A stretch of DNA of 64,000 nucleotides, taken from contig OY783205.1 in the NCBI GenBank assembly GCA_963678705.1, positions 7,874,001-7,938,000 on the forward strand, in the 5' to 3' direction. The first letter of the stretch is position 1. Each line of letters opens with the position of its first letter. Positions 14,010 through 43,458 of this stretch are shown in pieces. The stretch is from Panorpa germanica (Eukaryota; Arthropoda; Insecta; Mecoptera; Panorpidae). A program made the translations under genes and the position numbers. The notes beneath the pieces are model-generated. The model saw only the letters and a program-made list of their open reading frames with translations, was not told the DNA's origin and made no database searches.

Positions 14010-14532
14010 TCTTAATATATATATTTCTTGTGTGCGTGTGTATGTGACTGAACTCCTCCTAAACGACTGGACCAATTTTGATGAAATTTTTTGTGTGTGT
14101 TCGTGGAGATTCGAGAATGGTTTAGATTTACAGTTTGGTCTACTGGAAAATGTTTTTTCAATTAATTTCTTATTTATAAGGAGTTGTTGATTTTGGAATG
14201 TTTTACATTAGATCCGGCGGACGGCGCTATCATCGCATTCAATATTATTCTATTTCAATTTTAGTTTGTCCCGACAGATGGTGCTACGATTAATTTGAAA
14301 AAAATTTTGTTATTCAATTCATGTGCTGATTAAAATATTAAATGTAATTATTTTTTAAAGAGTTTTGAAGTGTGTATAAATAATTTTGTGAATTCAGATG
14401 TTTTTTTAATTAATTTTTATTTGTAAGGAGTTTTTGATTTTGGAATGTTTTACAATTAATTAAAAATTCATTATCAATAAGTAACTCATATTAATTGTAT
14501 ATTATTTTGCAATATTTTATTTTTGTAGAAAA

Positions 14533-17500
14533 ATGCCACGTCTTCGTGGAAGAGCAAGAAATATTGGTCGACGTACTCAGCACGCGCAATTAGTTTATTA
14601 TCATCGATTGAATAGAACAGTAGAAGAACATTCTATGGATAATGTAAATTTAAGAGATCGAGCTGCATGTACACGTGCAAATGAAAATTTAGAGCAACGT
14701 GCTCAACGTCTTCGTGCTAATACATTAAGACAACGAGAGGCACGTCAACGAGCGACCAACGCACATAGAGAACGTAACCAACAGCGAGTACAAGATAATC
14801 GAGCATTGGCACGAGCATCACTTAATCGTCTCGCGTTTGAATATGATCCTGAAATAGATTATTCATCACATGCATTGATCACGATTGGTAGTATGGACAA
14901 AGAGTGTCAACATTGTCATGCTTTCAAGTACAAAGGTGAATCAGCTGGTTTATGTTGCGCATCTGGAAAAATATCACTGCCACCGCTAAAACCACCACCA
15001 GAACCTTTAAAAACGCTTTTAGCTGGAATCACATCTCAATCGAAATTATTTTTACGGAAAATTCGTAAATTAAATTCATGCTTCCAAATGACATCATTTG
15101 CAGCAACAAAAATTATTCATAATGAAGATGGCCGTAATTTTGAATCCACATTCAAAATTCAAGGCCAAGTATATCACCAAATTGGTTCGTTACTTCCAAT
15201 GCCTGATGCCGATCCAAAATTTTTACAAATTTATTTTATGGGGAATGAAGAGCAACAATCACATACACGCTGCGTTTACAACCATATAGAACAGATGGAG
15301 GAACGAGAAATTGTGGACATTTTGGAAAGGTTTTTGCAAAACCATAACCAATTAGTACAATTGTTCAAGACTCTTTCTAACAGACTGCAAAACGATAACT
15401 ATGTCATTGTTATTAAAGCAGACAAAGTACCCTATGGAGAGCACGCAGGCACATATAATGTTCCAACCATTAATGAAGTGGCAGTTGTTATGGCTGGTGA
15501 CCCATGTGAACGTAGAGACATTCGCATACAACGCAGAGATAATACGATGCAAATAATTCAAGACAATCATCGTTCTTACGATGCTTTGCAGTATCCGTTA
15601 ATATTTTGGGAAGGAGAAGACGGATATCATTTAAATATTAAACAACGGAATCCAACTACAGGTACAACTTATAGATTATCTTACAATTTTTTTTTTGAAT
15701 AAATAATTTTTGTTCATCTCATAATTATATTTATTTACAGGTGAAGAACTGACCAAGAAAGTTAGTGCCATGAATTTCTACGCATATCGGTTAATGATTC
15801 GTGCTAATGAAGATAATAATATTCTCCGCTGTAGACAGCTATTTCATCAGTACATCGTCGATATTTATGTAAAAATTGAAAGTGAAAGATTAAGGTATAT
15901 AAAATTCAATCAAGCAAAACTTCGAGCTGAAGAGTATATTCATTTGCGTGATGCAGTAATCGGTAATGTAGATGCAACAAACGTCATTAACAACATCGGT
16001 ACCACATATATTCTCCCATCATCATATATTGGTAGTCCGCGTCATATGCAAGAATATATTCAAGACGCTATGACATACGTACGTGCATACGGTCGACCAG
16101 ATCTTTTTCTCACATTTACATGTAATCCAAATTGGGATGAAATCAAAAACTTGCTGTTGTCAGGTCAAACATCGATGCATCGCCACGATATCACTGCGCG
16201 TGTCTTTAAACAAAAATTAAAATCTTTGATGAATTTGATCACACATTACTCGGTTTTTGGTGAAACACGTTGTTGGCTTTACTCTGTTGAGTGGCAAAAA
16301 CGAGGTTTACCTCATGCGCATATTTTGATTTGGTTGGTGGATAAAGTACGCCCAGAAGAAATTGACAAAATTATTTCAGCGGAAATTCCAGATCCGAATG
16401 TTGATCAAGAACTGTTTAACATTGTTACTACTAATATGATTCATGGTCCATGCGGTACTCTAAACATGATGTCACCATGCATGAATGATGGAAAATGTAC
16501 GAAACGTTTTCCAAAACCATGTCAAACTGATACTATCACCAATATTGACGGTTATCCATCTTACCGGCGCAGAGACGTAGATAATGGCGGTCAATCGTAT
16601 GAATTGCGACTGTCAAACGGTGTAAGAGTAGATATTGATAATCGGTGGGTGGTTCCATATTCGCCATTACTATGCAAAACCTATAAAGCGCACATAAACG
16701 TTGAACTGTGCAGTTCGGTGAAATCTATCAAATACATTTGTAAGTACGTTCACAAGGGCAGTGATAAAGCTATATTTGCTGTTCAAAATGTAAATGACAA
16801 TGACGAAATAACACGTTATCAAATGGGTCGATACATAAGTAGCAATGAAGCTGTCTGGCGCATTTTTACGTTTCCTATACATAAAAGGGATCCTGCAGTT
16901 ATACATTTGGCTGTGCATCTTGAAAACGGACAGCGTGTTTATTTTACAGAACAGACTGCACTACAACAAGCATTAACGGCTCCAAAAACAACTCTTACTG
17001 AATTTTTCAATCTTTGTAATCGACAAGATGTTGTTGGTCAATTCGCAAAAACATTAATGTATACTGATGTTCCTAAATTTTTTACATGGAATAAGCAATC
17101 GAAAAATTGGGAACCACGAAAACGAGGGATTCCAGTCCCAGGATTCGCCGACATATTTATGACAAATACTTTAGGTCGACTATATACAGTTCATCCTAAG
17201 CAACGCGAATGTTTTTTTTTGCGTTTGTTATTGGTTAATGTTCTTGGACCGACATCCTTCCAATATTTACGAAAAGTCAATGGTATTTTATACGACACTT
17301 TCTTCGATGCGTGTCGTGAGTTACATTTATTGGAGGATGATAACCATTGGGATCTTACACTTGCAGATGCAGCACTGAGCTCTTCTCCACAACAAATTCG
17401 TCAATTATTTTCAATAATATTAACAACGTGTTTTCCGTCTGAAGCATCTGCTCTCTGGAACAAATATAAAGACTCAATGAGTGAAGATATTTTGCATCGG

Positions 17501-19099
17501 ATTAGAATTACTAATCAAAATCCTGATATTCAATTCTCCGCAGAAATATACAATGAGGCTTTAATTATGATTGAGGATATTTGTATTCTTATTTCAAACA
17601 TGCCACTCATCCATTTTGGCATGCCGGCGCCGAACCGCCCAGCAGTAGATATCATCAACAGTGATGTTCAACGTGAACACCAGTTTGATAAGACTTCGTT
17701 GGCTACTTTTGTTGCTAATAATGAACAATTGCTTACAGCTGAACAACGAAATGTATATGATCAAATTAACGTATCAATTGCAGCACAACAAGGTGGATTC
17801 TTTTTTTTGGATGCACCAGGTGGCACTGGTAAAACCTTTCTCATCTCACTGATACTTGCGCGCATTCGATCACAAAATCATATTGCATTGGCCATTGCTT
17901 CATCAGGCATTGCAGCGACGTTACTTGATGGTGGACGGACTGCGCATTCAGCACTTAAGTTACCTTTGAATGTTCATACAAATCCCGAAGCAATGTGTAA
18001 CATAAAGAAGCATTCCGGCATGGCTGAAGTTTTGAGAAAATGCAAAATTATTATTTGGGATGAATGTACAATGGCCCACAAGCATTCGCTTGAAGCTCTC
18101 GACAGGTCCCTGAAGGATATCAAAGATAATACTAGGCTTTTCGGTGGTGCTCTACTGCTACTGTCTGGTGATTTCAGGCAAACATTGCCAGTAATTCCAC
18201 GTGCGACATATGCAGACGAAGTAAACGCATGTTTGAAGGAATCTTATCTATGGCGGAGTGTCAGTAAATTGAGCCTTACTATCAATATGCGCGTTCAACT
18301 ACAAAATGATCCATTAGCGTCAGGATTCTCTGAACAATTGTTAGACATTGGCAACGGTAAAATTCAACTGTATGAAGATACCCAATTTATTAAATTTCCA
18401 GAGAACTTTTGCAACATGGTGGCTACCAAAGATGAATTAATAAATAGTATCTTTCCAGATTTAAGATATAACTATACTAATCATGAATGGCTACGAGAGC
18501 GAGCTATTTTAGCTGCAAAAAATTTAGATGTAGACGCCATCAATTTTAAAATACAACAGTCATTGCCTGGTAATGAAATTACATTTAAATCAATTGACAC
18601 CGTTGTTGATCCTGACGAAGTGGTCAACTATCCAGTAGAATTTTTGAATTCTTTAGATTTACCTGGAATGCCACCACATAATTTGCGACTGAAGATTGGC
18701 TCACCTATAATTTTGCTTCGTAATTTAAATGCCCCGAGATTGTGTAATGGCACGCGATTAGTTATAAAAAAAATCATGGGCAACATTATTGAAGCGAATA
18801 TTTTATCTGGGAAATTCCAAGGTGAAATTGTACTTTTACCGCGGATCCCAATGATTCCTTCAGATTCACCTATACCATTTAAACGCTTACAATTTCCGAT
18901 CCGTTTGGCATATGCTATGACTATTAATAAGTCACAAGGTCAAACGATGACATTTTGTGGCTTTGATTTAGAAAATCCGTGTTTTTCTCACGGCCAATTG
19001 TACGTTGCGTGTTCCAGAGTTGGAAAACCATCGAGTTTGTTTGTTTATACTCCTCATGGACTAACTAAAAATATTGTACATCCAATGGCATTACGCTAA
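14533..19099 (+). CDS. Helitron Rep/helicase transposase (spliced)
   Basis: Exons 14533-15661 and 15741-19099 give 1495 residues with no stop. The N-terminus is basic and coiled (residues 1-110), followed by a Cys-rich CQHC...GLCC motif near 125-145 and Helitron_like_N. The HUH nuclease has FTCNPNW near 501-508, HAH at 568-570 and two candidate catalytic tyrosines in KYICKY (708, 712). The PIF1-like SF1B helicase has Walker A GGTGKT near 1070, Walker B WDECTM near 1150, GDFRQ, NMRV, TINKSQGQ and ACSRVGKPS at the end. It nicks and unwinds element DNA for rolling-circle transposition. A possible polyadenylation signal AATAAA lies at 19121. Confidence 0.93.
15662..15740 (+). other. 79-nt phase-1 intron in the Helitron gene
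   Basis: The intron begins GTACAACTT and ends TTATTTACAG. Joining the exons turns a frame that would end ...NFFFE into ...NPTTG-EELTKKVSAMNFYAYRL, the usual Helitron sequence at this place. The intron is AT-rich and has a T-rich 3' end. Confidence 0.9.
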
Positions 19100-28304: not shown

Positions 28305-29770
28305 CAAGTTAACTGTTATAGTTTTTGATGTTATTCATGAAATAGGCAAAAAGAAGATGCATATTACTCATTAGTTCTATTAAGGGCTCTAAAAAGTGTT
28401 AAAAGGTTTCGGAATTGAAACTTTGCCAATTGACTTTCCATCTCTTTCACAATCAATTTGACTTTTAATACATCTTGAATGAGAATCAAATACTGCAAAT
28501 AAATTAGATATAAAAATGACAAAGGTCTGATCACTGTAAATAATCCATTTTTATTTTTATATAAGTATGACTCTAAAAAGGAGTTGTTAACCCTCTTATT
28601 TGCAGAAGAAGCTATATATATTATAAAATAAAATTTAAAGTATTACCTAAAATATTATTTTAAATAGGAATAAAGGATAAAAAGGAAATTGCAACTTTGA
28701 TCAATAATTCATATTAATATAAATATTTGTATAGATAAATATACTTAGCCTCTTAGAGGAATAAAGTTTCTAGGATATTGCAATTAATAGTTATATATTA
28801 TAAAAATGTGTAATCAATCGAGAAATGCAATCTTCTAAAATGAAAAAATCAATACGATAATGTATAACAAAGATAAATAACTGTTTGGCGTTTCTCTTTA
28901 AAATTTCTTCTTGTCTATTAAAGCTTGTTTTTTCAAGCGAATTTGCTTTAATTCATTAGTTCTCCTAATCAATTTCTTCATGAAAACAGTTTCTACTTTT
29001 TGTAGCCTCTCCTCCTTCTCATTTGGTGTTTCACTTTTAATTTTTTTTGAAATTGTTGCTGCCCGAATATGCACAAAACTAAACGCAAATAAAAACTTTC
29101 CCCTTCCTCAGGGCTAACACTATAAGGCCGAGCATTTATTTTAGAACCAGATCGTTTCCGCTGTGTCCGACATGTCTCTGTGACGAAATTTTCAGAAATT
29201 TCGGTGCAAAAATATTTTCTAGAATCTACTGAATGTAAATCATGCAATATGGTTTAATATTGCTAATTCTTCTTCACCAGGTGTGAAAAGTAAGTTTTGA
29301 TGATTTACCTTATGCACTGCTAAACAATAGATAGATTAAGTTTTAAATTGCATATGGAATGCAAATATGCACCATATGGCTTCTGGTGGACTAACGTAAC
29401 GTGCATCCAAATAAAAAGAAACTTCGTACTAATTTCGTTGGGTTTGTTCTTCCGTAGACATTTTAACATTTGCACAATCATGTTTATTGCCACATTTATA
29501 TGGCAATTTAATTTATACGATAAATATTTATTGTATGGAACTATCCAGCGGTTATCAACAGCGTATTTAAATTTACCGCTCTTTCAAAAAATGTAATTTT
29601 AGAATTGTTATCGCGACTCTTATATAATGGATGCCGTTAACATTATTTATTGTTTCTGCTTCAAATTCTTTCTGAAAACGCTTAGTACATTCGAAATTTT
29701 TCATACATGGCGATTTAGGATTGACTGTTCCACAGGGCCCACGTACGTTACTAGTTATTTTTAATAACAC
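28305..29770 (-). pseudogene. Rearranged Helentron debris (copy 4 mosaic)
   Basis: The pieces match the main copy out of order. 28305-28425 equals the start of the Rep part (37070-37185). 28430-28600 equals the first peptidase domain (39430-39600). 28615-28880 equals the 5' leader (40020-40341). 28900-29040 equals the basic repeats. 29050-29110 equals the YSVSPEEGE region of Rep. 29573-29770 equals the GPCG...CTKRF region. Adjacent pieces probably come from more than one insertion. Confidence 0.7.
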
Positions 29771-29781
29771 TATAAGTCTGA

Positions 29782-29900
29782 CTAGCTTTTACCCCGTCGC
29801 AAAGCGACGTCTGTTTAATATATATTATTTGAATTTCATAAAGTAATACGTAATTTCATTTCAAATTTTTCATATTAAAATTAGAAAAGCACTGTCGCTA
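29782..29900 (-). mobile_element. 3' end of a non-autonomous Helitron
   Basis: Minus-strand 3' end is CTAG at 29782-29785, followed by T, preceded by GGGGTAAAAG and the hairpin CGTCGC (29795-29800)/GCGACG (29804-29809). The same end occurs at 43459, 49310 and 49898. Similarity continues for about 100 bp; the 5' end was not found. Confidence 0.72.
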
Positions 29901-31600
29901 TTTTTTAGATATCATACTCGTACATGAAATAAATAAATATTTTAAAATGAAAATGTTGTATTTCATCTTATATGATCTACTACTTTAAAATTGCTTATTG
30001 GAACAAATATTCTACAGGATTTACTTATTATATCATATCAAAAAAAATTAAAATTCTAGTTTTATAATAATTTTTAAATGTTTCATAATTAAATTTAAAT
30101 ATTTCTGTTAAATATATTAAATATAGATTTATATATATCGTCTTCATTTTGCGTACACTTTAATATACATAATTATAATTATTTCTTCATTGACCAGTAA
30201 ACAGTATTCTTTGTATTTTTCATGTTGTTATCATTTTTGTTGTTTCTTCATAAACGTATAGCTATTAACGCACTGTCGTTTCAGATTGTGATGCCTTAAT
30301 CGGTGTGGATATAACATCTTCTGTGATAGTAGGACAGTAGTCTTCTGTGATGTTGGCGGTTATTATCTCATTACTATTCCAGGTTTAGCATTTAAATAGT
30401 AGCACTTTATTATTCCCCTCCTAAAAAAGCATTCTTAATAAATAAATAAATAAAATATACTGAATGCAAAATTATGCACTTACAGTTTGTACATGTGATG
30501 AACAGCACTAATATCTGCTTCATTGAATTGTTTATCAGAATAATAGATAATGAATTTCCCATAAGCCGGGTCTTTGTTGTATTTTATAAATATACACGAT
30601 CAGCTAAAATCTTCTTATTGCCACGGCCCTTTTTTCGCTCTGTAAATTACAATAACATTAATTTACATCGTACTTGCATGATCGTCTTAAACAACATGAA
30701 GAATATATTGTATTTATTTTTAATAAAAGGATAATATAGAATAGTAATAATATTTGTAGTAGTTATTTCACAAAAATTAAACACAAAAATAATGTTTTGC
30801 AACATCAAAAGCATTAATTCATTTGTTTAAAAATCTATTTAAAAAGCATAATACCTGAGAATGTTATGTTATTTTAAAGAATCTCAGCATAATGATATGA
30901 TTGTATCATCATGCTGATATATATAATTGTGTCGTAAAGGTATTTTAGGTTACTTTTTAACGTATTTTAGACAAATGATTCATCCATACTGGTAGGTCTA
31001 GACACACTTTATACACTTCTTAGTTGCAAAGACCTAAAACTTAATATGTAATATATTAATATTAATATTTAATGTTAATTATTTGTAATAGCAATATTCG
31101 TATTAATAATTAATAATATGAAAGCATAATTTATAATTTAAAAAGGAAATATTCTTTTTAGTTAATTTATCTGCAAACGTTGTAATAAAAATACTGATCT
31201 GATAACAGTTATTACACATTAGACTACACTTAAAAATGCGATTAATGATTTGTAAATAAGAGTATTTTTCTAAACGTTATCAAATAAATCATGCGACAAC
31301 ACCAGCGAGCAGGTAAAGAATATGAAACAAATTTTTAAAATATATTATTCATATGATAATGTAGCATGCATGTAGTTATGTAGAAGTTATTTCAATATGA
31401 ATATGACTGAATTTTATAAATTTGAAACTTCGTTGTCGAGAGAGGAGAGGACCAACATAGGATTATAAAAAGGAAAGAATTCATAAAAGGATATGTGGTA
31501 ATCTGAAAACAAATAAAATGCCAATAACATACAATATAATATATATAACACTTACATCTAAAAGTAAATAATAAAGTAATAATAAGTACTTAAATAATAA
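29901..31600. other. AT-rich non-coding stretch
   Basis: No gene, RNA or transposon terminus recognised. A 20-base stretch GGTAATCTGAAAACAAATAA near 31496 recurs in direct orientation near 40519, on the other side of the main Helentron. Confidence 0.5.
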
Positions 31601-33110
31601 ATTTCAATTATACCTATCAAAAAGCAATTAAATGATAATCTCACTCTCCCGACCAGAGTATTTGTTTAACAAATGACTGCTAAAAGAAAAATACGGAAAG
31701 AGAATTTAAAATTTAAGAACACTACTATTTGGTTTGAAAACAATGAAATATAACACTATTACATTTAAAACACGAAAAGCAGGTAAAATGGCAAAGAGTA
31801 CATCACTTCGTACGCACGATATAATATATATAACACTTTCATCTAAGGGTAAATAATAAAATAAAAATGAGAACTCAAATAATAAATCTCAATTATATCT
31901 ATCTAAAAGCAATTAAATGATAATCTCACTCTCCCGACCAGAGTATTTGTTTAACAAATGAAAGCCAATAGAAAAATACGTAAAAAGAATCTAAAATTTA
32001 AGAGTAAATAATAAAATAATAATAAGAACTTAAATAATAAATCTCAATTATACCTATCTAAAAGCAATCAAATGATAATCTCACTCTCCAGACCAGAGTA
32101 TTTGTTTAACAAATGAAAGCCAATAGAAAAATACGTAAAGAGAATCTAAAATTTAAGAGTAAATAATAAAATAATAATAAGAACTTAAATAATAAATCTC
32201 AATTATACCTATCTAAAAGCAATCAAATGATAATCTCACTCTCCCGACCAGAGTATTTGTTTAACAAATAAAAGCCAATAGAAAAATACGTAAAGAGAAT
32301 CTAAAACTTAAGAGTAAATAATAAAATAATAATAAGAACTTAAATAATAAATCTCAATTATACCTATCTAAAAGCAATCAAATGATAATCTCACTCTCCA
32401 GACCAGAGTATTTGTTTAACAAATGAAAGCCAATAGAAAAATACGTAAAGAGAATCTAAAATTTAAGAGTAAATAATAAAATAATAATAAGAACTTAAAT
32501 AATAAATCTCAATTATACCTATCTAAAAGCAATCAAATGATAATCTCACTCTCCAGACCAGAGTATTTGTTTAACAAATGAAAGCCAATAGAAAAATACG
32601 TAAAGAGAATCTAAAATTTAAGAGTAAATAATAAAATAATAATAAGAACTTAAATAATAAATCTCAATTATACCTATCTAAAAGCAATCAAATGATAATC
32701 TAACTCTCCCGACCAGAGTATTTGTTTAACAAATAAAAGCCAATAAAAAAATACGTAAAGAGAATCTAAAATTTAAAGCACTATTTGGGTTAAAAATGAT
32801 AAAATAAAACATCATCACTTATAAAACACGGAAAACAGGTGAAATCGCAAAGAGTAAATAATTTCGAACCGGAAAGACGATGGAAGGTTTTTAAGGTTAA
32901 TAGTTTAATTATGTAAAAATTAATGTGAACTATATAATAAAAAAATAATGATAACTTAAAAAATAAATCTCAATTATATCTATCTAGAAGCAATTAAATG
33001 ATAATCTCACTCTCCCGATCAGAGTATTTGTTTAACAAATGACTGCTAAAAGAAAAATACGTAAAGAGAATCTAAAATTTAAGGAGACTATTATTTGACT
33101 TGAACATGAT
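31600..33110. repeat. 155-bp tandem array with longer outer units
   Basis: The anchor GAGTATTTGTTTAACAAAT occurs at 31941, 32096, 32251, 32406, 32561 and 32716, exactly 155 bases apart. Outer anchors at 31656 and 33022 are spaced 285 and 306 bases, because those units carry an extra segment (AAACACG, GCAAAGAGTA). Each unit has a TTTGTT-T-AACAAA palindrome and ACTCT/AGAGT arms. The array lies directly 3' of the Helentron Rep/helicase. Tandem repeats of about 150 bp near one end are known from DINE-1/Helentron elements, so it is probably part of the element. Confidence 0.85.
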
Positions 33111-33176
33111 GAATTATAATATTATTACTTATAAAACTCGAATAGCAGATGAAATAGCAAAAGGTATTGGAGGTAT

Positions 33177-36100
33177 CTATTCTAATAGAAGTACATTTTT
33201 ATAAACAACATTGGATGTAAATATATCTTTTTTCGATTTAGTAACAGAAGTTAATGTTTCAATTTTTAAATTATTGGATGATTTAACCCTTGAAAACGCG
33301 ACATATAATTGGCCATGAGTAAAAACGGGTTCCCGTAATAAAACACCTACTTTTCAAAAGTTTGACCTTGTGATTTATTTATTGGCATAGCAAATGCTAA
33401 TCGAACAGGAAACTGAACTCTTTTAAGTATAAATGGAAGATTTATATCAGAAGGAGCTAAAACTATTTTAGGAATAAGAGCGCGATCACCAGTGTGACTT
33501 CCAGTAATTATTTCTGCATCTATTACAGATGTATACATATGTTTTACAATTAAACGGGTTCCATTACAAAGTCCACTATTAGCATTCATATTTCTTAAGA
33601 GCATTATAATTGCACCTATTTTTAAATTTAATTTATGTGGAGGCATACCCGATGGTGTCAAACTATTTAAAAATTCTACTGGGAAATGATTTTGTTCTGT
33701 ATCAGAATCAGTTGAAACAGAGTCATGACTTAAAGAGCAAATTTGTTCCCCATCCAATAAATTTAAAATTTTTTCATTAATCTGTAATGTGTCTTCATTT
33801 AATGGACATAAAATTACGCGAAATTTTAATTCATCAAGAGTAACTAAATTAATATCGCCGTATATTTCATCGACTAAAGGTTTGGCGGAAATGAATTTAT
33901 TTGGGATTTTAACCATGTTTACTACACTACCTGGACAATCATTTATTAGTCCATCTCCAAGTTGTAATAACCACGTTTTAAAATCGATTTCTTCTAGCGC
34001 AACTCTCATGTTAATTGTCAGATGCTTAATTTTGAAAAGTGACCATAACCTGCTATTTTGAATACACGTTGAAACTATATCTGCAACCGTTCCGCGTTTA
34101 ACAACAGAAAGACATTGTCGAAAATCTCCTCCTAGTAAAATGATTTTATTACCAAATGGCTTATTATTTTTCATTAAATCGCGAAGGCACATATCTACTA
34201 CATCTAAAGCAAAGTAAGGCGCCATTGTAACCTTGTCCCATATAATTAACTTAGCTGATTTTAATAACTTCCCATCAATAGAGTTGTGCCTTATGGATGA
34301 AGTTGAATTTCCATCTAGGGGAACCGGTATTTTAAACTGTGAATAAATTGTCCTCCCCGCTTTCAGTAAAGTCGCAGCTATCCCTGTCCAAGCCACAGGT
34401 ATAGCAGTTAATCCCATTCCACGTACGACGTGTAGTAAAGCAGTATAAAGAAATGTTTTCCCAGAACCACCCGACCCATGAATAAAGAAATATCTTTGCT
34501 CTTCATTATCATTGTTTATGCAAAGCATTATTTCATCAAATACGTTTTTCTGTTCCGAATTTAATTGATTACTAAAATTAACCACTTGCTCAAATTCTTC
34601 TGTTTGGTTAAATGTTTCCCTAACTAAAACTAAATTTACATTACGATATTCCAGAAATCCAAAATCAGTATAATTGAAATTATGTAATTTAAAAATATCA
34701 ATGATGTCATTGATAGCGAACTGTTCCGCAGTTTCTTGGTTATAAGTTAAACTATAATCCTCGCATAAAGTTACTTTATGATTATCCCATAATAAATTAG
34801 GATCGCAGGGTTCGCAAAAAATACAAATAAAAGCAAATAGATGTCGTAGCTGTTTGGGCATTTTACAAATTGAAGCATCATCTAAACAACGATCCCATTG
34901 AGTAGCATCATTCAATAAACCTAATTGTTTTGCTGTTTCGTGGAAAGTGGAATATTCGATTCCATTGAGAGTTCGCAAGTCTTTGAAACATGTAGCGCCG
35001 CGTACATGAAGCAACAATAACCTTAAATAAAACCTTTCACCTTCTTTAGGACTAACACTATACATTCTCGGAATTATCAAATGACTTATGCGCTGTCTTA
35101 AAGTCCATGTCTTTTTGCGATCAAAAATGTAATGTTCGGGTATTTCCGTATACAAATAAGTTTTAGCCTCTACCGATGTTGAATTTAATTTAAACCAAGC
35201 CGTTAATGTAGTTTCTGAAGACTTTGCTAATGCAGATTCTTCATTTCCTTCAGTAAATAAAATATTTTGTTGGTTTTCTAAATGAACTGCCAACCTATAT
35301 ATAGTGTGTGTTTTATATTGCAGATCGAATGCAAATATTCTCCACATGGCTTCCGGTGGTGATACATATCGCGCGTCTAAATAAAATGAAACTTCATCCC
35401 AGTCTAATTGTGCTTGTCCTTCAGATGTTATTTTAACATTGGCACAATCATGGCCCTTATATATATATTTAAATAAATATTTTACGCTTTTAACCGAAGC
35501 GCAAATTTCAACATTAATGTGGCATCTATATTTCAAGGAAAGGAATCTATTGTACGGTACAACCCATCTATTATCTACTGTATGTTTTATAGTGCCTTTT
35601 GCCGTGTAAAAATCAATTTTTAAATTATTATCCCGACGTCTGTACAAAGGATACCCGTTACTGTTATTTACAGTGGAAGCTTGAAATGATTTCGGAAAAT
35701 CTTTACTGCATTTATTGTCTTTCATGCATGGAGCATTTATATTATATGGTCCACATGGACCGTGAATCATACATTTTTTGACCACATCAAATAAAATGGG
35801 ATGAGTTTCACTATCTGGAATTTCTGCAGATACAACTTTATCAATAAGTTCCGTGTTTCGAATTTTATTTTGATTATTTAAAATTATTAGAATGTGAATG
35901 TGAGGTAAACCGCGTTTTTGAAATTCAATAACAGAAACGATAGCTGTTACCTTACCGAAAATATGACTTTTCAATAGATCGTCAAAGAGTTCTTTCACTT
36001 TTAATTGAAATACTCTAACAACTAAATCGGGACGATTTTCGGTTCGTTGATTATTAAGTAAATTACTTTTAATTTCTGGCCACTCGGGATTACATGTCAT

Positions 36101-37381
36101 TTTAATAAACAAATCCGGTGAACCATATTTACAAATAATTCCCATAGCATCAAGATAATGTTGTGACATGCTACGTGGACTTCCGACAAATGTACTTGGT
36201 AAAATAACCATTCTGCCAGGTATAATTCCTTCATTAATGGATTTATTTTTGACGTAATCCATCAACCCTTTATACATTTCTGACCGCAATTTCTTTTGTG
36301 TATTTGCGTTCCGAATGAAATTAAGTCTATTACCTTCGATTTTGGAATACGCGTCAACAATATACTGTTGAGTAAGTTTTCCGGCACTAAGAAATGGATT
36401 AAAAGAGCCCGTGCATCTAAGTTTATAAGAATAAAATTGACGATGAGAAATTCTTCTTGCTAATGAAACATTTAGTAAATGTTCCGAATGGCCGAGTTCA
36501 CCGGTTGGACATAACAACGGATAAGTCATTGGATCGCAATTTTCATTAAGAATATTTATGTTACGTAGATTACCATCTTTTTGATAGACACAAATGTCTC
36601 TATCAGAAGGTGGTAATCCATCTTTGCTTGTAAAAATTAAAGCTACTTCATTAGTAGACGGCACGTTGTATCGCCGTGGATCTTTTGTGAGCTGCTGAAC
36701 AATATTCATCTGCATATCAAAAGGATTTCTACCTTCTAAATTAGCTTTTGCAATCTCCTCTCTTTCTACTTCAGCCATCATTTTATATGCAGCAGCGTAT
36801 GGATTTACTTTTCTTATTAAAGAATCCAATTGCTCAAATAATTGTCTCTTGCATTTACGGTTAACATCGCCTTGCATTCTTTTACATATGGCCTCATCAG
36901 GATCTAGAATATACAGCTGACCATATTGTGACTGTTTTCCTTCTGTAGGGTGTGCCGATGATATTCTATGGTAAACCTGACCACATATCCTGAAACAGTA
37001 CGGCCCACGTGTGCCTGGACGGTGATCAATATGTGCTCCAAATGAAGCAAATGCAAGCGAACTATTGTAATTTCTGATGTTATCCATAAAATTGGCAGAA
37101 AGGGGATGCATATTAGTCATTAGTTCTATTAACAGCTCTGGAAAAGGGTTAGAAGGGTTCGAAATTGAAACTTTGTTTTTTGAACAGCATAATGAAAATT
37201 TTCCATCTGTCGGTGTTTCATTTTTGAAATGATTTGCGTTGCAAAATTGACAGATGACATTCATAGATCCACAGTAATGTTGTATTACAAATGTTTCATC
37301 GTTTATTTCTTGAATTGCTGTACTTAGTATTTGTTGCGGTAAGATGGGCGCTTTATTCTGTGTTTCCTTTTCTCTTTGTGT
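33177..37381 (-). pseudogene. Helentron Rep/helicase half
   Basis: Frame 37264-33347 (1305 codons) is open upstream to 37381, giving QHYCGSMNVICQFCNANHF, so the ATG at 37264 is probably internal. It has a Cys-rich motif, Helitron_like_N, MTCNPEWPEI, HIH of the HUH nuclease, KYLFKY tyrosines, GSGGSGKT Walker A, GGDFRQ, NMRV and INKSQGQ. Walker B reads WDKVTM where WDE is expected, losing the catalytic Glu. A one-base deletion near 33346 ends the frame early; the normal tail (LLREPVFTHGQLYVAFSRVKSS) continues in another frame to a stop at 33177. Confidence 0.88.
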
Positions 37382-40008
37382 TTAAAGTTCTGATGCTTTA
37401 TCTAATGTTCTTTGCTTTTGTAAGGCTATTTTCTGTAATCTGATTTGTTTTGCATCTTCCTTTTCATTGGCTAACCTAATTCTTTTGCGAAATAACAATA
37501 TATTTTTACTTCTGTCTTTTTCATTTATATTTTGTTGTAGTAATCGCTTTTTGTTTATTAAATTCTGCTTCTTTAGGCGAACTTGTCTCGCAATTTTTGT
37601 TTTCAAACTTAATTTTTTCTTTAAATCTGCTTTCATTTTCTGTAGTCTTCTTCGCCTTTCGTCCGGTGTTTCATCTCTAAATTTCTTGCTATCTCTTACT
37701 GCCTGTTCTTTTAAGCGAATTTGTTTTAATTGACTTGTTTCTCTAACTAATTTCTTCTTAAAATTTGCTTTCAGTTTCTCTAGTCTTGTTCTTCTATTAT
37801 CGGGCGTTTCTCTTTTGAATCTCTTACTACTTCTCACCGCCTGTTTTCTTGAGGGAATTTGTTTTAATACATTTGTTTCCTTAAATGAATTCTTCTTAAA
37901 ATCTGCTTTCATTTGCTCCAGTCTTTTTTGCCTTTCATCCGGTGTTTCTTTTCTGAATCTTTTGCTATTTCTCACTGCCTGTTTGTTTAAGCGAATTTGT
38001 TTTAATTCACTTGTTTCCTCAAATAAATTCTTCATAAAATTTGCTTTCTTTTGCTCCAGTCTTTTTTGCCTTTCATCAGGTGTTTCTTCTCTGAATCTCT
38101 TGCTATTTCTCAATGCCTGTTTTTTTAAGCGAATTTGTTTTAATTCACTTGTTTCATTTTCTAACTTCTTTTCCAAATATAACTTTAGTTTGTTTAACCT
38201 TTTTTGCCTTCCACCTGTAGTTTCTTTTTTGAAATTATTCTTATTTCTGAAAATCTGTTTTTGTAAGCGTTTATCTTTATCCTGCTTAGGTTGAGACTGT
38301 AATATTGTTTTTCTTCGTACACGTTTGTTTTGTTTCGTCTTTTTTAGCAGCCTTTTACTTACTCTTACTTTCAATGTAGTACTACGTTCATGGCATTTTT
38401 CTTTTGATAATACTGTATCACGAACTTTTTCTGATTCATTTAATTGCACATTATCACTTACTAAAATTCTTGTATCACTTACTATATTATCACATATTAC
38501 ACTAACACTGTCACTTATTGTATTAACTTCATTTGTAAAGCTTAAGTATGAATATTCATATATTTCTGAGATGTTAATATTTCCTGTAATACTTTCTACA
38601 GTAATTGTAAGAATTGTAAAAAGTAAAGAACCTCCAGAATCCCGAAAATTATATTTAATTAGATCGACTAAATCCGTTACGTATTTATAACATAAAAGTA
38701 CTGCTTTGCCATTAGAGTTCGAAATAGATTGTCCCTTGTTACCCCTGGAATGGGAATCAAAGACCCAGAAAAGGCTGTCGTGTTTGAACAGTGAAAATGT
38801 TTGACTGCAAGTAGTGAATAGTCCGTTTTTATATTTTTTTAAATATTTTTCTAAGAAATCTCCTGTTAATATATTAAGATGACCTTGAGCAGTGTCCATA
38901 AGATCATAATTAATTTTACATAAACCATTACCAATCGATAAATTTGGAATAATCTCCTCAATTAGTAGGAATGGGTGACAACCGGGTTTTAAACTTTTTC
39001 GATAACAATTGTCTCCTAGTATTAAAATATAATCTAATACTTGGGTCGTCCAGCTATTGAATGTAATTAATTCTTGCATACATATACTAAATGTAGCTAT
39101 TGCCGTACATTGAGAATTTTTAGGTAAATTTCGAAAAACATCACTTGCTTGATTAAAATTTGCTTGTAAAATTGTATAAGGTTCCGGCAATTTAAATACA
39201 GTTACACCTTTTTCGGAGACATTAACGTTAGGATAATTATAAATGGAACTTGTTATAATTTCATCAATGTTTACAGAAGTAGAAGAATTATTTATTTCTT
39301 TTAATGTACTATTATCTATAGTGCTTAATATACTAATAGGAGCAATAGAAAATTCTGTGGTTTTACAGCTACTAAAATTAAATTTAATCAAATTTATGAC
39401 ATCAAGAAGATTTTTAAAGCTTTCCATCTCTCTCACAAACAATTTGTCCTTTAATACCTCTTGGATGTGAATCAAATACCCAAAATACATCAGATTCTTT
39501 GAAAATGACAAAAGTCTGATCACTAACTGTAAATAATCCATTTTTATGTTTATCGAAAAATGACTCTAAAAAGAGAATTGATAACTCTCTTATTTTTGTA
39601 TTTGCATTTCTAATGTCGCCCCAGCGGGTTTTTGCGTTATCATAATATACGACGTATGTGTTTTCTTTTAAGGAGATGTTTTTTTTTAACTTTATCCGCT
39701 AATAAGAATCGGTGTTCGTTACCTAAACAATTGTCTAAGTAACACTGATCTCCAAGTATTAAAATAAAATCCAAAGTATCTGAATTCCATGAATTTAACG
39801 GAGTAGTTTCGTTAACACATATTGCAGCAACACTGCAACTACTACATTGACCACGTGTTGATTTACAAAATCTTTTGTCAAATTGATTAAAAGTACCTCT
39901 GACAATTGATAATGGCTTTTTTAATTTATTTGAATTGGACCTTAAAATCTTAATATGATCAGACGAAATCCGTTTTTTCCTACCACAGCCAAATAATGAT
40001 TTAAACAT
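37382..40008 (-). pseudogene. Tandem UL36-like cysteine-peptidase domains plus basic repeats
   Basis: ATG at 40008. Domain 1 has FNQFDKRF, a GQC motif (Cys 39844-39846), W...LDFILILGD, and FDSHPRG (Asp 39471-39473, His 39465-39467). Domain 2 has SQC (Cys 39107-39109), W...LDYILILGD and FDSHSRG near 38758. A Cys after Gln plus Asp-x-His matches the layout of UL36/M48 deubiquitinases (MEROPS C76). Then come an acidic Ser/Asp linker and basic 46-residue repeats up to TAA at 37382-37384. Frameshifts lie near 39675 (A run) and 39420. The next 39 codons to the Rep ATG are open in the same frame, so it was probably one polyprotein. Confidence 0.72.
37604..38155 (-). repeat. Four 46-residue (138-bp) basic repeats
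   Basis: Units starting at E463, E509, E555 and E601 of the 37382-39541 frame share ET-x2-LKQI-x3-KQA-x-R-S-KRF-x2-ETPD-x-R-x2-RL-x4-A. Degenerate half-units flank them. They are rich in Lys, Arg and Glu and likely form a long charged helix. ETP-x-R-x2-RL repeats are common near the start of invertebrate Helitron proteins. Confidence 0.85.
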
Positions 40009-40341
40009 GTTGTAGTAGAAGTAAATAAATAAGCTATATATATTATAAAATAAAAACGAAAGTATTACCTAAACTATTATTATAAATAGGTGTAAAGCAT
40101 AAAAAAGAAATTGCAATTTTGATTAATAATTCATATTAATATAAATATTTGTATAGATAAATATACTTAGCTCCTTAGAAGATCTCTGTGATGTAACATA
40201 TGCCACAGAGGAATACTCCAGTATATTGTAATATATAGCTGTATATTATATAAATATGTAACCAATGCAGAGATTTGCAGACCTCTAAAATAAAAAAATC
40301 AATACGATAATGTATAACAAAGATAAATAACTAATACTACT
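40009..40341 (-). other. Helentron 5' leader
   Basis: This segment is about 80% alike by eye to 28615-28880, including ATAAATATTTGTATAGATAA and AAATCAATACGATAATG. Both stop at AAAGATAAATAACT. It is the probable promoter-bearing end of the element. Confidence 0.6.
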
Positions 40342-41389
40342 TATACTATATACTAAATAACTAAGAGTACTTATGGCAGAAATTTAAGGTTACATAAAGA
40401 AATTTTTAAAATATGTATAGAAAAAATTAAAATGAAAAGAACAAACCAGTATTGACAATCGATGTCGTCTTTCTCAATTAGAACATTAGTATTATACTAA
40501 GTACAACACTAATAATTCGGTAATCTGAAAACAAATAAAGAATAATATACAAAAAAACAAATTTGGCCTCACATAAGTTATAAATATCAGTAAATTACTA
40601 CAAATAATATTAATTCGTAATAAAGATTCCAAGTTTTTAGCAGAATCAGACATCCGCAGGCCCTAAAAACGGTTTTAATATAGCAAATAGTTATTACCTA
40701 TTTGATAAACATCATTTACTCGTCTTTCAGATTAATAATAAGATTCAGAAGATATTGCATAAAAACAGTTTTGGTAGTCATTTTTTTTACGTGCTGATTC
40801 CGCGGATGGCCGATGATGGAAAAAACTTGAAAGTTTTGTTCGAAATATAAACGTTAAAACATATTCAAAAACTTTAAGTACGGGACACATTGTAAGGTAA
40901 ATAATTTTTCTTCTGCTACTATAACAAAAGTATACAAATCGTTTTAATTATGTAATGACAGTACTAAGTAAAGCAAAAAATCTTGCTAAATACATTGTTG
41001 TCAAGACATAACCAAAATAAAGCAACAGTTAATACACTGATATTTTCATATATTTCACAATTTTTTAGATATAGTAAACAGATAATTTATAATACTCATA
41101 TGTAGCTACTTCATCGAAAAACTTCAACATTTTGCAGAATACATAATAGTATTTTTGTATACAACATACCTATAAATGTAACAACATATAAATATAAATA
41201 AATAAATGTATTAGATTAAATTAGTAAAAAGCTCACCTTATATATCAAAAGTAGTTTTAATTCACAAATAAATTATTATTCAACACTTAACAACAGAAAT
41301 TCTTATATTTATAATTTGATATAAATCAAACAACAATCAATATATTGACTTTGCAGACGTTAAGAACTCATGTCATAGACACTCAGCAG
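40342..41389. other. AT-rich non-coding stretch
   Basis: No gene or terminal repeat recognised. Confidence 0.5.
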
Positions 41390-41660
41390 GGGGTACTATC
41401 TGAGCTATAGTTCCGTGCAGTTCAGTGATACCACATATTAAAACATAATATTTTTTACTTTTACAATTTCTGTTGGTAGAAATATATTTGAGTTTATTAT
41501 TTCTTTTTCAATACTATTTGTTACATTTTTAATATCAGTAGATATATGCAATTATTTTCATTCAATATAAATGTGTTTTTAAAATTTTAATAACAGTAAA
41601 AAATATTATGTTTCAATATGTGGTATCACTGAACTTTAGCTCAGTGCACTCCCTTCACCC
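41390..41660. mobile_element. MITE-like inverted-repeat element
   Basis: Arms GTTCAGTGATACCACATATT (about 41422) and its inverted copy (ending about 41636) continue inward through ACATAATATTTTTTACT. Weaker homology extends outward through CTGAGCTA. The loop of about 130 bp is AT-rich and non-coding. No clear target duplication. Confidence 0.6.
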
Positions 41661-42689
41661 TTCATTCCCTTCAAATGTTGAGACGCCGAGCATTTTAGTT
41701 CACTATTCCAAAATTGGCGCCTAAAGCGAACATGTTGAATACAGTCGATGAATCGTTTGGCTGTAAATTTTTCAAAGCAGCCAATATAAAAATGAAAAAA
41801 GAAACTTTAATATTTATTCTAGAACATTCTTCCTGCCGGGTTCACACATGTTCAAATACTAATGGGTAAAGAGAATATACTGCTTACGTATATATTGCTC
41901 ACAGTGCAAATATTCGTGCTCACAGGGATAACGTTCTGTATTCGTACACGAAAATAAACATTTTCATCATAGTAGCAAAAACTTTCATGGTTCACATATA
42001 CTTATATTCACTTTAACCATTCGTACACCATCACGCATGTGTGAACCCGGCATCAGAATTTCAAAGCGGAATTCTTCTTCTTCTTCGGAATGTACATGAG
42101 AAATTAAATATATATACCAGCTCAAAAAAAATAAATATAAATGTTAAAATCGTTACGAAATAATAACATTTCAGGCTGGTTCTAAATGTTAGCCTGTAAT
42201 ACATAATAATATTTGTTTCATTAAAGATATCTATGGTAATGCAAAAATTGTATATTACAATCAGAACCAATATTATTTCTTATTTATATAAAAAATATAT
42301 GAGCTATATATATATGAAATATGTATGAACTGATATTTTAGGTCAATTTTTTAATTTTTTATTGAAATATGTTATATTAATCAATATTTCAATAAAAATT
42401 TGCGTTTTTATTTTATTGAATATTTAAAAAATGACCGATATAATCTATTTAACGTTTGAATTTTATTTTAATGCGTAATACGTTGTTATCCTAGTAGTTA
42501 ATAATGGCAACAACAGTTCCTATTGCTGTGACATTTCTGTATCTCATTTGCACTTCTCTTGTTTTATCACGATAACAATGGTTGGCAAATAAAAGTGGAG
42601 AGGAAGGTGAGGAAGGAATGACGTCAAGTGATCTGTCATTTCTTTAAATTTTTACCTCTTTTTTTTAATTATAAAAGAGAGCGTAACCT
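41661..42689. other. Non-coding stretch
   Basis: Nothing recognised. Confidence 0.5.
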
Positions 42690-43458
42690 TCTTTTTCCAT
42701 ATTTAATTTAAATTCTATTAAATAATTCGTAATTTCATTTCAAATTTTCGTTCCATTTTTAAATTGAAATATTAAACTCGTTCTATATAAATTTTACTCA
42801 CTAAAAAATATATTTTTTTCAACAAAATAAAAAATATTTTCAATTTATTCGTTATTTGACCAACTTTTTTTCAAAATTTGGGATTTTTTTTTTCGATTCG
42901 TAAATAAGTTACCAAGGTTAGCCTATATACAAAATTTCAACTTTCTAGCACAATTTTTACTCTCGGCAAATACTGCCCCCCGTGCCCCCAAATAAAGTTT
43001 TGAAATTTTGAATTTTTTTTTATTAATAATATATTTAATTATTCTAGAATCCAGAATATGAACTTTCTCCAAAGTTCCCTACCGGGCCCCCGAATTTCTT
43101 CAACCCTCCCTTTTTCAATTTTTGAACTTCAAATTTTTGAGAAATGTCAGCATTAAATAGCTTAATACACATGCAAAATTTCAACTTTCTATCTTTTACT
43201 ACTTAAAAGTAATACAGCAAAAAAAGGATCACTTTTTTTTACAGTTTTTCCAAAATTACGGGTTTCCAGAAAATTCAGGGAAAAATCCGAGGACGCCAAA
43301 AGTCTTAGAATTTTTTTCTCTACGAAATAGGAAATTTTTAAAAACTTCCCTGGAGCCGTTTTCGAGATGCCATACAAAATTCGAACCAAACATATAAACA
43401 CATAAACATAGAAACTTATAAGAATATAAATAAACACTTGGAACATTATAATATAGGA
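42690..43458 (-). mobile_element. Non-autonomous Helitron, 3'-truncated
   Basis: The minus-strand 5' end TCCTATATTATAATGTTCC starts at 43458. Leftwards it shows blocks shared with 46800-47057, 49440-49890 and 49950-50280 (an ACGGCTCC-type motif, CTACGAAAT, ATTTCATTTCAAATTT). The 3' hairpin and CTAG are missing near 42690. The frames at 43189-43480 are not genes. Confidence 0.65.

Follow-up and report, generated by a model that had tools for sequence, protein, structure and literature searches.

The locus raises the question of what two similar cysteine-peptidase-like blocks are doing side by side in a transposon of Panorpa germanica. The window, that is, the whole stretch of 64,000 nucleotides analyzed here (contig OY783205.1, positions 7,874,001 to 7,938,000), belongs to a genome of 464 Mb in 249 contigs. 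It contains on its minus strand a Helitron, a rolling-circle transposon, whose protein combines two viral tegument-like deubiquitinase (VTD) domains, VTD1 and VTD2, with STPR repeats and RepHel, the Rep nuclease and helicase of such elements. The best explanation of the whole, which we consider likely, is a canonical Helitron with twin VTDs that would deubiquitinate RepHel or its neighbors.

An earlier note, made from the letters of the window, had described two similar blocks with shared motifs. Both were confirmed on the minus strand at the positions it gave, with Gln-Cys, W..LD-[FY]-ILILGD and W-V-FDSH-[PS]-RG found in each. The distance from the Cys to the Asp of Asp-x-His is 117 residues in VTD2 and 123 residues in the VTD1 of copy L009. 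VTD1 and VTD2 of copy L022 matched each other by BLASTP (E 3e-53), as did the VTD1 and VTD2 profiles by hhalign (E 8e-42). Judged from these alignments, the two domains are homologous, and chance likeness is excluded. The window VTD2 shares just 33 to 39% identity with the VTD1 of five relatives, which excludes a duplication in the assembly, the artifact that the earlier note had considered, as the source of the second block. The window copy is frame-broken, which would fit an assembly artifact or a chance resemblance, but the probability of either is negligible: many contigs carry copies with the same pair, both domains lie in one frame in 18 of the 20 copies fetched, and the tree described below puts VTD1 and VTD2 in starred groups of their own.

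The genome was searched with the 719-amino-acid frame of the window, which gave at least 158 matches on many contigs; the copy number is undercounted because 62 of the 1,236 candidates were scored. The 20 fetched loci were selected for long frames. One open frame of 2,189 to 2,399 amino acids (first Met used) was present in 18 of them, and the frame was split in the other 2. The order in the 18 open copies was VTD1-VTD2-STPR repeats-RepHel, and the single polypeptide of the family is VTD1-VTD2-STPR-zinc-finger-like motif-Rep-helicase. The tandem pair is a real genomic feature, kept across many copies. The catalytic Gln, Cys, Asp and His of VTD2 were each kept in 18/18 open copies. In VTD1, Gln, Cys and Asp were kept in 18/18 and His in 17/18. 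Walker A was present in 18/18, and the C terminus NVVYKNVLLLE was reached in 15/18. Narrow motif scans of L001 to L008 detected the VTD2 Gln-Cys in 8/8, the VTD2 Asp-x-His in 7/8 and the VTD1 Asp-x-His in 6/8; a seventh match of the latter scan, in L008, is probably VTD2. The narrow VTD1 Gln-Cys pattern matched 0/8 and was unfit for the QCSSCS form of the window and L022. Some observations count against the favored explanation. The VTD1 His is replaced by Tyr in L027, the HUH motif and the two-Tyr motif were each found in 17/18 open copies, 3/18 stop before the usual C terminus, and the selection of the 18 copies by long frame itself favors intact domains.

Both domains very likely belong to the VTD (UL36/M48-type) family. 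The profile of block 1, built from seven open copies, reached the zebrafish Helitron VTD structure 8ADD with an E value of 2.7e-11, and that of block 2 reached it with an E value of 2.1e-7. The fold model of the window's own VTD2 was papain-like and had 8ADD, 2J7Q, 8ADC and 8ADB as top entries, with 8ADD and M48 matched first. The UL36/M48-type cysteine peptidase named in the earlier note was thus borne out by profile for both domains and by structure for VTD2, and the OTU peptidase family PF02338 had no match in Pfam scans of the window, of the L009 and L022 frames and of the VTD domains. Other results weaken the assignment. The VTD2 model was modest, with a mean predicted local distance difference test score of 60.5 (five models, 38.1 to 60.5; 3 sequences); the model covers VTD2, and VTD1 was placed by sequence profile alone. 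The cutoff of 25 bits for PF04843 (Herpes_teg_N) was not reached by VTD1 (18.2 bits in L009 and 13.6 bits in L022), and PF04843 had no match in the VTD2 of L009 and L020. We predict with good confidence that VTD2 is an active deubiquitinase.

The ratio of nonsynonymous to synonymous divergence (dN/dS), summed over the 153 pairs of the 18 frames, was 0.346 for VTD1 and 0.176 for VTD2. These values are well below 1, indicating that selection acts to keep both domains and is stronger on VTD2. The 52-residue linker between VTD1 and VTD2 in the same copies had a ratio of 1.004 (median 0.815 in the 122 pairs with dS >0.05), that is, no constraint, despite a choice of open frames that biases towards constraint. 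The ratios for the remaining parts were 0.450 for the linker to STPR, 0.244 for STPR, 0.230 for the Rep N-terminal part, 0.078 for Rep and 0.170 for the helicase. The 153 pairs are not independent, and four subfamily representatives (6 pairs) were used as a second set, in which the ratio ranged from 0.31 to 0.41 for VTD1, from 0.69 to 3.62 for the linker and from 0.12 to 0.26 for VTD2.

The two domains differ at the site that holds the ubiquitin tail. In zebrafish DrT1-VTD2, Asp376 and Glu377 hold the ubiquitin C terminus, and with the exchange Glu377Ala the cleavage of peptides is lost and that of chains strongly reduced (PMC9741609). In the register of the profile alignments with 8ADD, VTD2 has Glu-Glu at these positions in 18/18 copies. 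VTD1 has Asp-Glu in 7/18 and Asp-Lys in 11/18, the latter being a point against the favored explanation. The Lys suggests that recognition by VTD1 may be altered. A further step would be that only VTD2 works as an enzyme and that VTD1, its duplicate, is in decay or serves for binding only. This Lys, the effect of Glu377Ala in the zebrafish domain, the Tyr for His in one VTD1 copy and a dN/dS double that of VTD2 point in this direction, but VTD1 has kept its Cys, Asp and Gln in 18/18 copies with a dN/dS clearly under 1, and we regard its complete loss of enzymatic function as rather unlikely. The main enzyme is probably VTD2, with VTD1 as a modified form.

A tree of 36 rows set VTD1 (17 rows) and VTD2 (16 rows) apart, each making up one side of a starred branch (98/96), and VTD1 and VTD2 together were split at 95/92 from the proteins P0001 and P0002 and from 8ADD. 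The duplication that gave rise to the VTD pair predates the subfamilies of this genome. The doubling looks separate from the zebrafish one because VTD1 and VTD2 join each other before 8ADD, in a tree that has long branches and leaves out DrT1-VTD1. The identity of 8ADD is itself given in two ways in PMC9741609, as DrT1-VTD1 in the data statement and as DrT1-VTD2 in the text and table.

In most pairs of copies, the VTD module and RepHel do not share one history. The median synonymous divergence (dS) was 0.25 for VTD1, 0.50 for VTD2 and 1.01 for STPR, the last value being affected by repeat alignment. It was 0.20 for the Rep N-terminal part, 0.07 for Rep and 0.08 for the helicase. A single common history at one rate was rejected: the VTDs exceeded Rep plus helicase in 106/153 pairs (binomial p < 1e-6), and the reverse was found in 0. 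Between L009 and L015, the change point lies at about residues 810 to 910, close to where STPR meets RepHel, and in other pairs its place is different. The contrast in dS is explained by elements recombining with one another or by a conversion that homogenizes RepHel. A difference below 1% was found in 7/153 pairs of open copies, and L020 and L021, on two contigs, have identical frames (0/7,197 differences). These near-identical copies fit recent movement, with segmental duplication as another possible source. More speculative, and in our judgment improbable as a whole, is the idea that VTD1-VTD2-STPR is an exchangeable cassette that recombines between RepHel backbones under its own selection, with VTD2 as a general cutter of ubiquitin chains and VTD1, its charge at the ubiquitin-tail site reversed in many copies, turned to another modifier or partner, and that it represents a second independent VTD doubling in rolling-circle transposons.

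The ends of the element were established by comparison with other copies. Three downstream extensions of other copies all depart from the window sequence at 29764-29768. The window and L035 to L037 (4/4) share GTCGC-TTT-GCGAC-GGGGTAAAAG-CTAG, followed by T and then by divergent sequence. This 3' motif had a single match in the window (29808-29782) and none in 100 shuffles. The 5' end was set by comparison with L029 (which sits upstream of L022), L031, L033, L036 and L037. The window and L031 begin with TC, and in the window this TC, at 43458, directly abuts the CTAG of another related element. The 5' motif has 11 occurrences, 6 of which read TC[AC]TATAT (window, L031, two in L033 and two in L036); in the remaining 5 (two in L037 and one each in L036, L029 and L033), a CTAG-like end is directly followed by TATAT. 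At the insertion site, T follows CTAG in 4/4 and A precedes TC in L031; the corresponding base in the window is the G of the other element's CTAG. The mapped TC and CTAG ends give an element of 13,677 bp. Related elements lie head to tail from 43459 upward and in L036 and L037, where CTAG abuts the next 5' end. Arrays of units of about 800 bp, which resemble the 5' region of the element and end in its 3' hairpin, occur beside some copies.

The RepHel is collinear in one stretch with Helraiser (7LCC), query 1-1304 on chain 121-1435 (1,317 bits), and in the window it carries the HUH, two-Tyr and Walker A motifs. Canonical Helitrons start with TC, end in CTRR with a hairpin about 11 bp inside and insert between A and T; Helentrons have subterminal inverted repeats and prefer T-T sites. 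Helentrons are defined by an apurinic/apyrimidinic (AP) endonuclease fused to the C terminus of RepHel (PMC4067079). No such family was found in the L009 or L022 frames by domain search or in the scan of the window. By this definition, the element is a canonical (Helraiser-type) Helitron and no Helentron, since its RepHel is of the Helraiser type, its ends are a 5' TC and a 3' hairpin with CTAG, and no AP endonuclease was found. The tandem inside a Helitron, as the earlier note had it, stands, and its description as Helentron-like was rejected.

For the function of the twin VTDs, it is most likely that they would cut degradative ubiquitin chains off the RepHel polypeptide or proteins near it. 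A deubiquitinated rolling-circle transposase would survive the proteasome, and the basic STPR repeats would probably hold the protein on DNA as a tether. In silkworm FMBP-1, the domain that binds DNA is STPR (PMC4821344); the zebrafish VTDs cut K48, K63 and K11 chains, and PMC9741609 likewise suggests that ubiquitin is stripped from the transposase or from host factors. That protection of RepHel is the main role of the VTDs is a reading to which we give somewhat less than an even chance. The VTDs may instead act against host silencing or immunity. In this role they would deubiquitinate chromatin or defense proteins within the germ line, to the benefit of transposition and not of RepHel stability. 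Erven et al. (PMC9741609) report that related insect genes are expressed in the testis alone and speculate on overcoming a limit to transposon inheritance; the twofold dN/dS of VTD1 over VTD2 would also fit. The ratios are well under 1 as domain averages, and we hold this role to be possible but doubtful. A third role would be that of a polyprotein protease that cuts between the domains and frees RepHel. All domains do lie in one chain of 2,189 to 2,399 amino acids, and the zebrafish domain also cleaves the short peptide RLRGG (PMC9741609). However, no LRGG-like site was found in the 18 chains. Their Gly-Gly sites are SGGS (9 copies), where VTD2 ends, and QGGC (7 copies) and TGGR (1 copy), both before or in STPR; other Gly-Gly lie inside the helicase, and the sites vary between subfamilies. 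Such processing is thus very unlikely. The predicted deubiquitination of RepHel or its neighbors by the twin VTDs remains the reading that we favor.

The features of the window element are listed in Table 1.

Table 1. Features of the Helitron in the window
Feature	Positions	Strand	Remarks
Whole canonical Helitron, 13,677 bp	29782..43458	-	5' TC at 43458; 3' CTAG at 29785-29782, then T
VTD1 (block 1)	39302..40008	-	Three frames in window copy; tblastn; profile of seven open copies
VTD2 (block 2)	38552..39211	-	Open; Gln-Cys and Asp-x-His present; tblastn, profile, predicted fold
Open frame, 719 amino acids, VTD2 + STPR	37382..39541	-	In-frame stop before RepHel
STPR repeats, basic, 46-amino-acid period = 2 x 23 amino acids	37600..38260 (limits approximate)	-	PF21107 E 9.4e-22, 6 stretches
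RepHel (HUH Rep nuclease + PIF1 helicase), Helraiser-type	33347..37264	-	PF14214 E 9e-56; PF05970 E 5e-54
RepHel C-terminal end, other frame	33177..33344 (limits approximate)	-	Ends VVYKNVLLLE + stop
155-bp tandem repeat, 3' noncoding part	31844..32776	-	
3' terminal hairpin GTCGC-TTT-GCGAC, 10 nt, CTAG end	29782..29808	-	Common to L035-L037

The window element is broken, but its family has long open copies elsewhere in the genome. Two frame changes lie in VTD1, where tblastn with the VTD1 of a relative gave three pieces (40008-39667, 39692-39420 and 39418-39302; 93 to 96% identity); a stop at 37382 separates VTD/STPR from RepHel, and the frame changes again near the RepHel end. A 138-bp tandem array at 37610-38233 lies within the STPR region, and the PF21107 cutoff of 27 bits was passed by the window (77.7 bits), L009 (103.6 bits) and L022 (73.5 bits).

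The locus is a nest of related Helitrons. A second, degraded VTD1-VTD2-STPR module at 22717-20850 (minus strand) has a VTD1 86% identical to that of L020 and a frame-broken VTD2, and after it comes a short stretch of Rep N terminus. Fragments from other related Helitrons (STPR, VTD1, Rep and helicase) lie at 29071-28428, 29746-29074, 27015-26362, 48264-47016, 53221-51712 and 56097-55478. A different Helitron at 14485-19099 (plus strand) has a RepHel about 40% identical, with a frame change that splits off the N-terminal 405 amino acids; no VTD was found in it. Remnants of a retrotransposon pol (reverse transcriptase, RNase H and integrase), which we take to be probably Gypsy-like, lie at 11009-6839 (minus strand) with a DUF7041 frame upstream.

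Tandem VTDs in Helitrons are already known in kind. The earlier note knew of no described tandem in a Helitron, but zebrafish DrT1 has two active VTDs in one Helitron (Erven et al. 2022; PMC9741609). The Panorpa protein resembles it in having two VTDs with the same fold and catalytic residues. It differs in that PMC9741609 assigns the VTD Helitrons to the Helentrons, which end in an AP endonuclease (121 also carry OTU), whereas the Panorpa element is canonical and no AP endonuclease was found in it. Helraiser shares the collinear RepHel, but its 1,496-residue chain has at most 120 residues before the match, compared with about 920 (VTD-VTD-STPR) in the Panorpa family. The OTU-bearing Helitrons and Helentrons likewise fuse a deubiquitinase-type cysteine peptidase to RepHel, but the peptidase is of another family.

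The RepHel protein search gave 1,127 proteins, and among the 120 listed, PF04843 occurred in 1 (P0093), PF02338 in 4, PF21107 in 6 and the endonuclease family PF14529 in 1. The VTD model, run over 124 proteins (these 120 and P0001 to P0004), detected one domain each in P0001, P0002 and P0093, and no tandem VTD was seen among them. P0001 (VTD-STPR-DUF6570-Helitron_like_N) has the same order of VTD, STPR and Rep, but it has a single VTD and DUF6570 before Rep, and it aligns to 60% of the query at 24% identity. P0093 has a VTD before a RepHel of the same kind, with no endonuclease listed, but the VTD is single and the predicted protein starts after the Gln-Cys part. Among the papers listed by the literature searches, which covered few subscription papers, one dealt by title and terms with VTDs in Helitrons (PMC9741609); no VTD pair in a canonical Helitron was seen, and no paper joined STPR with Helitrons.

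What is new is that twin VTDs occur in a canonical Helitron, that selection has kept an STPR-linked layout in many copies, that VTD1 shows a change of charge and that the element has a mosaic history. The purifying selection on twin VTDs in many copies of a canonical Helitron, some of them near-identical, indicates that such enzymes are not confined to Helentrons. The natural Glu and Lys pairs at the ubiquitin-tail site are material for testing the job of each domain. The finding touches the wider question of what makes Helitrons, like herpesviruses, retain deubiquitinases of the tegument type.
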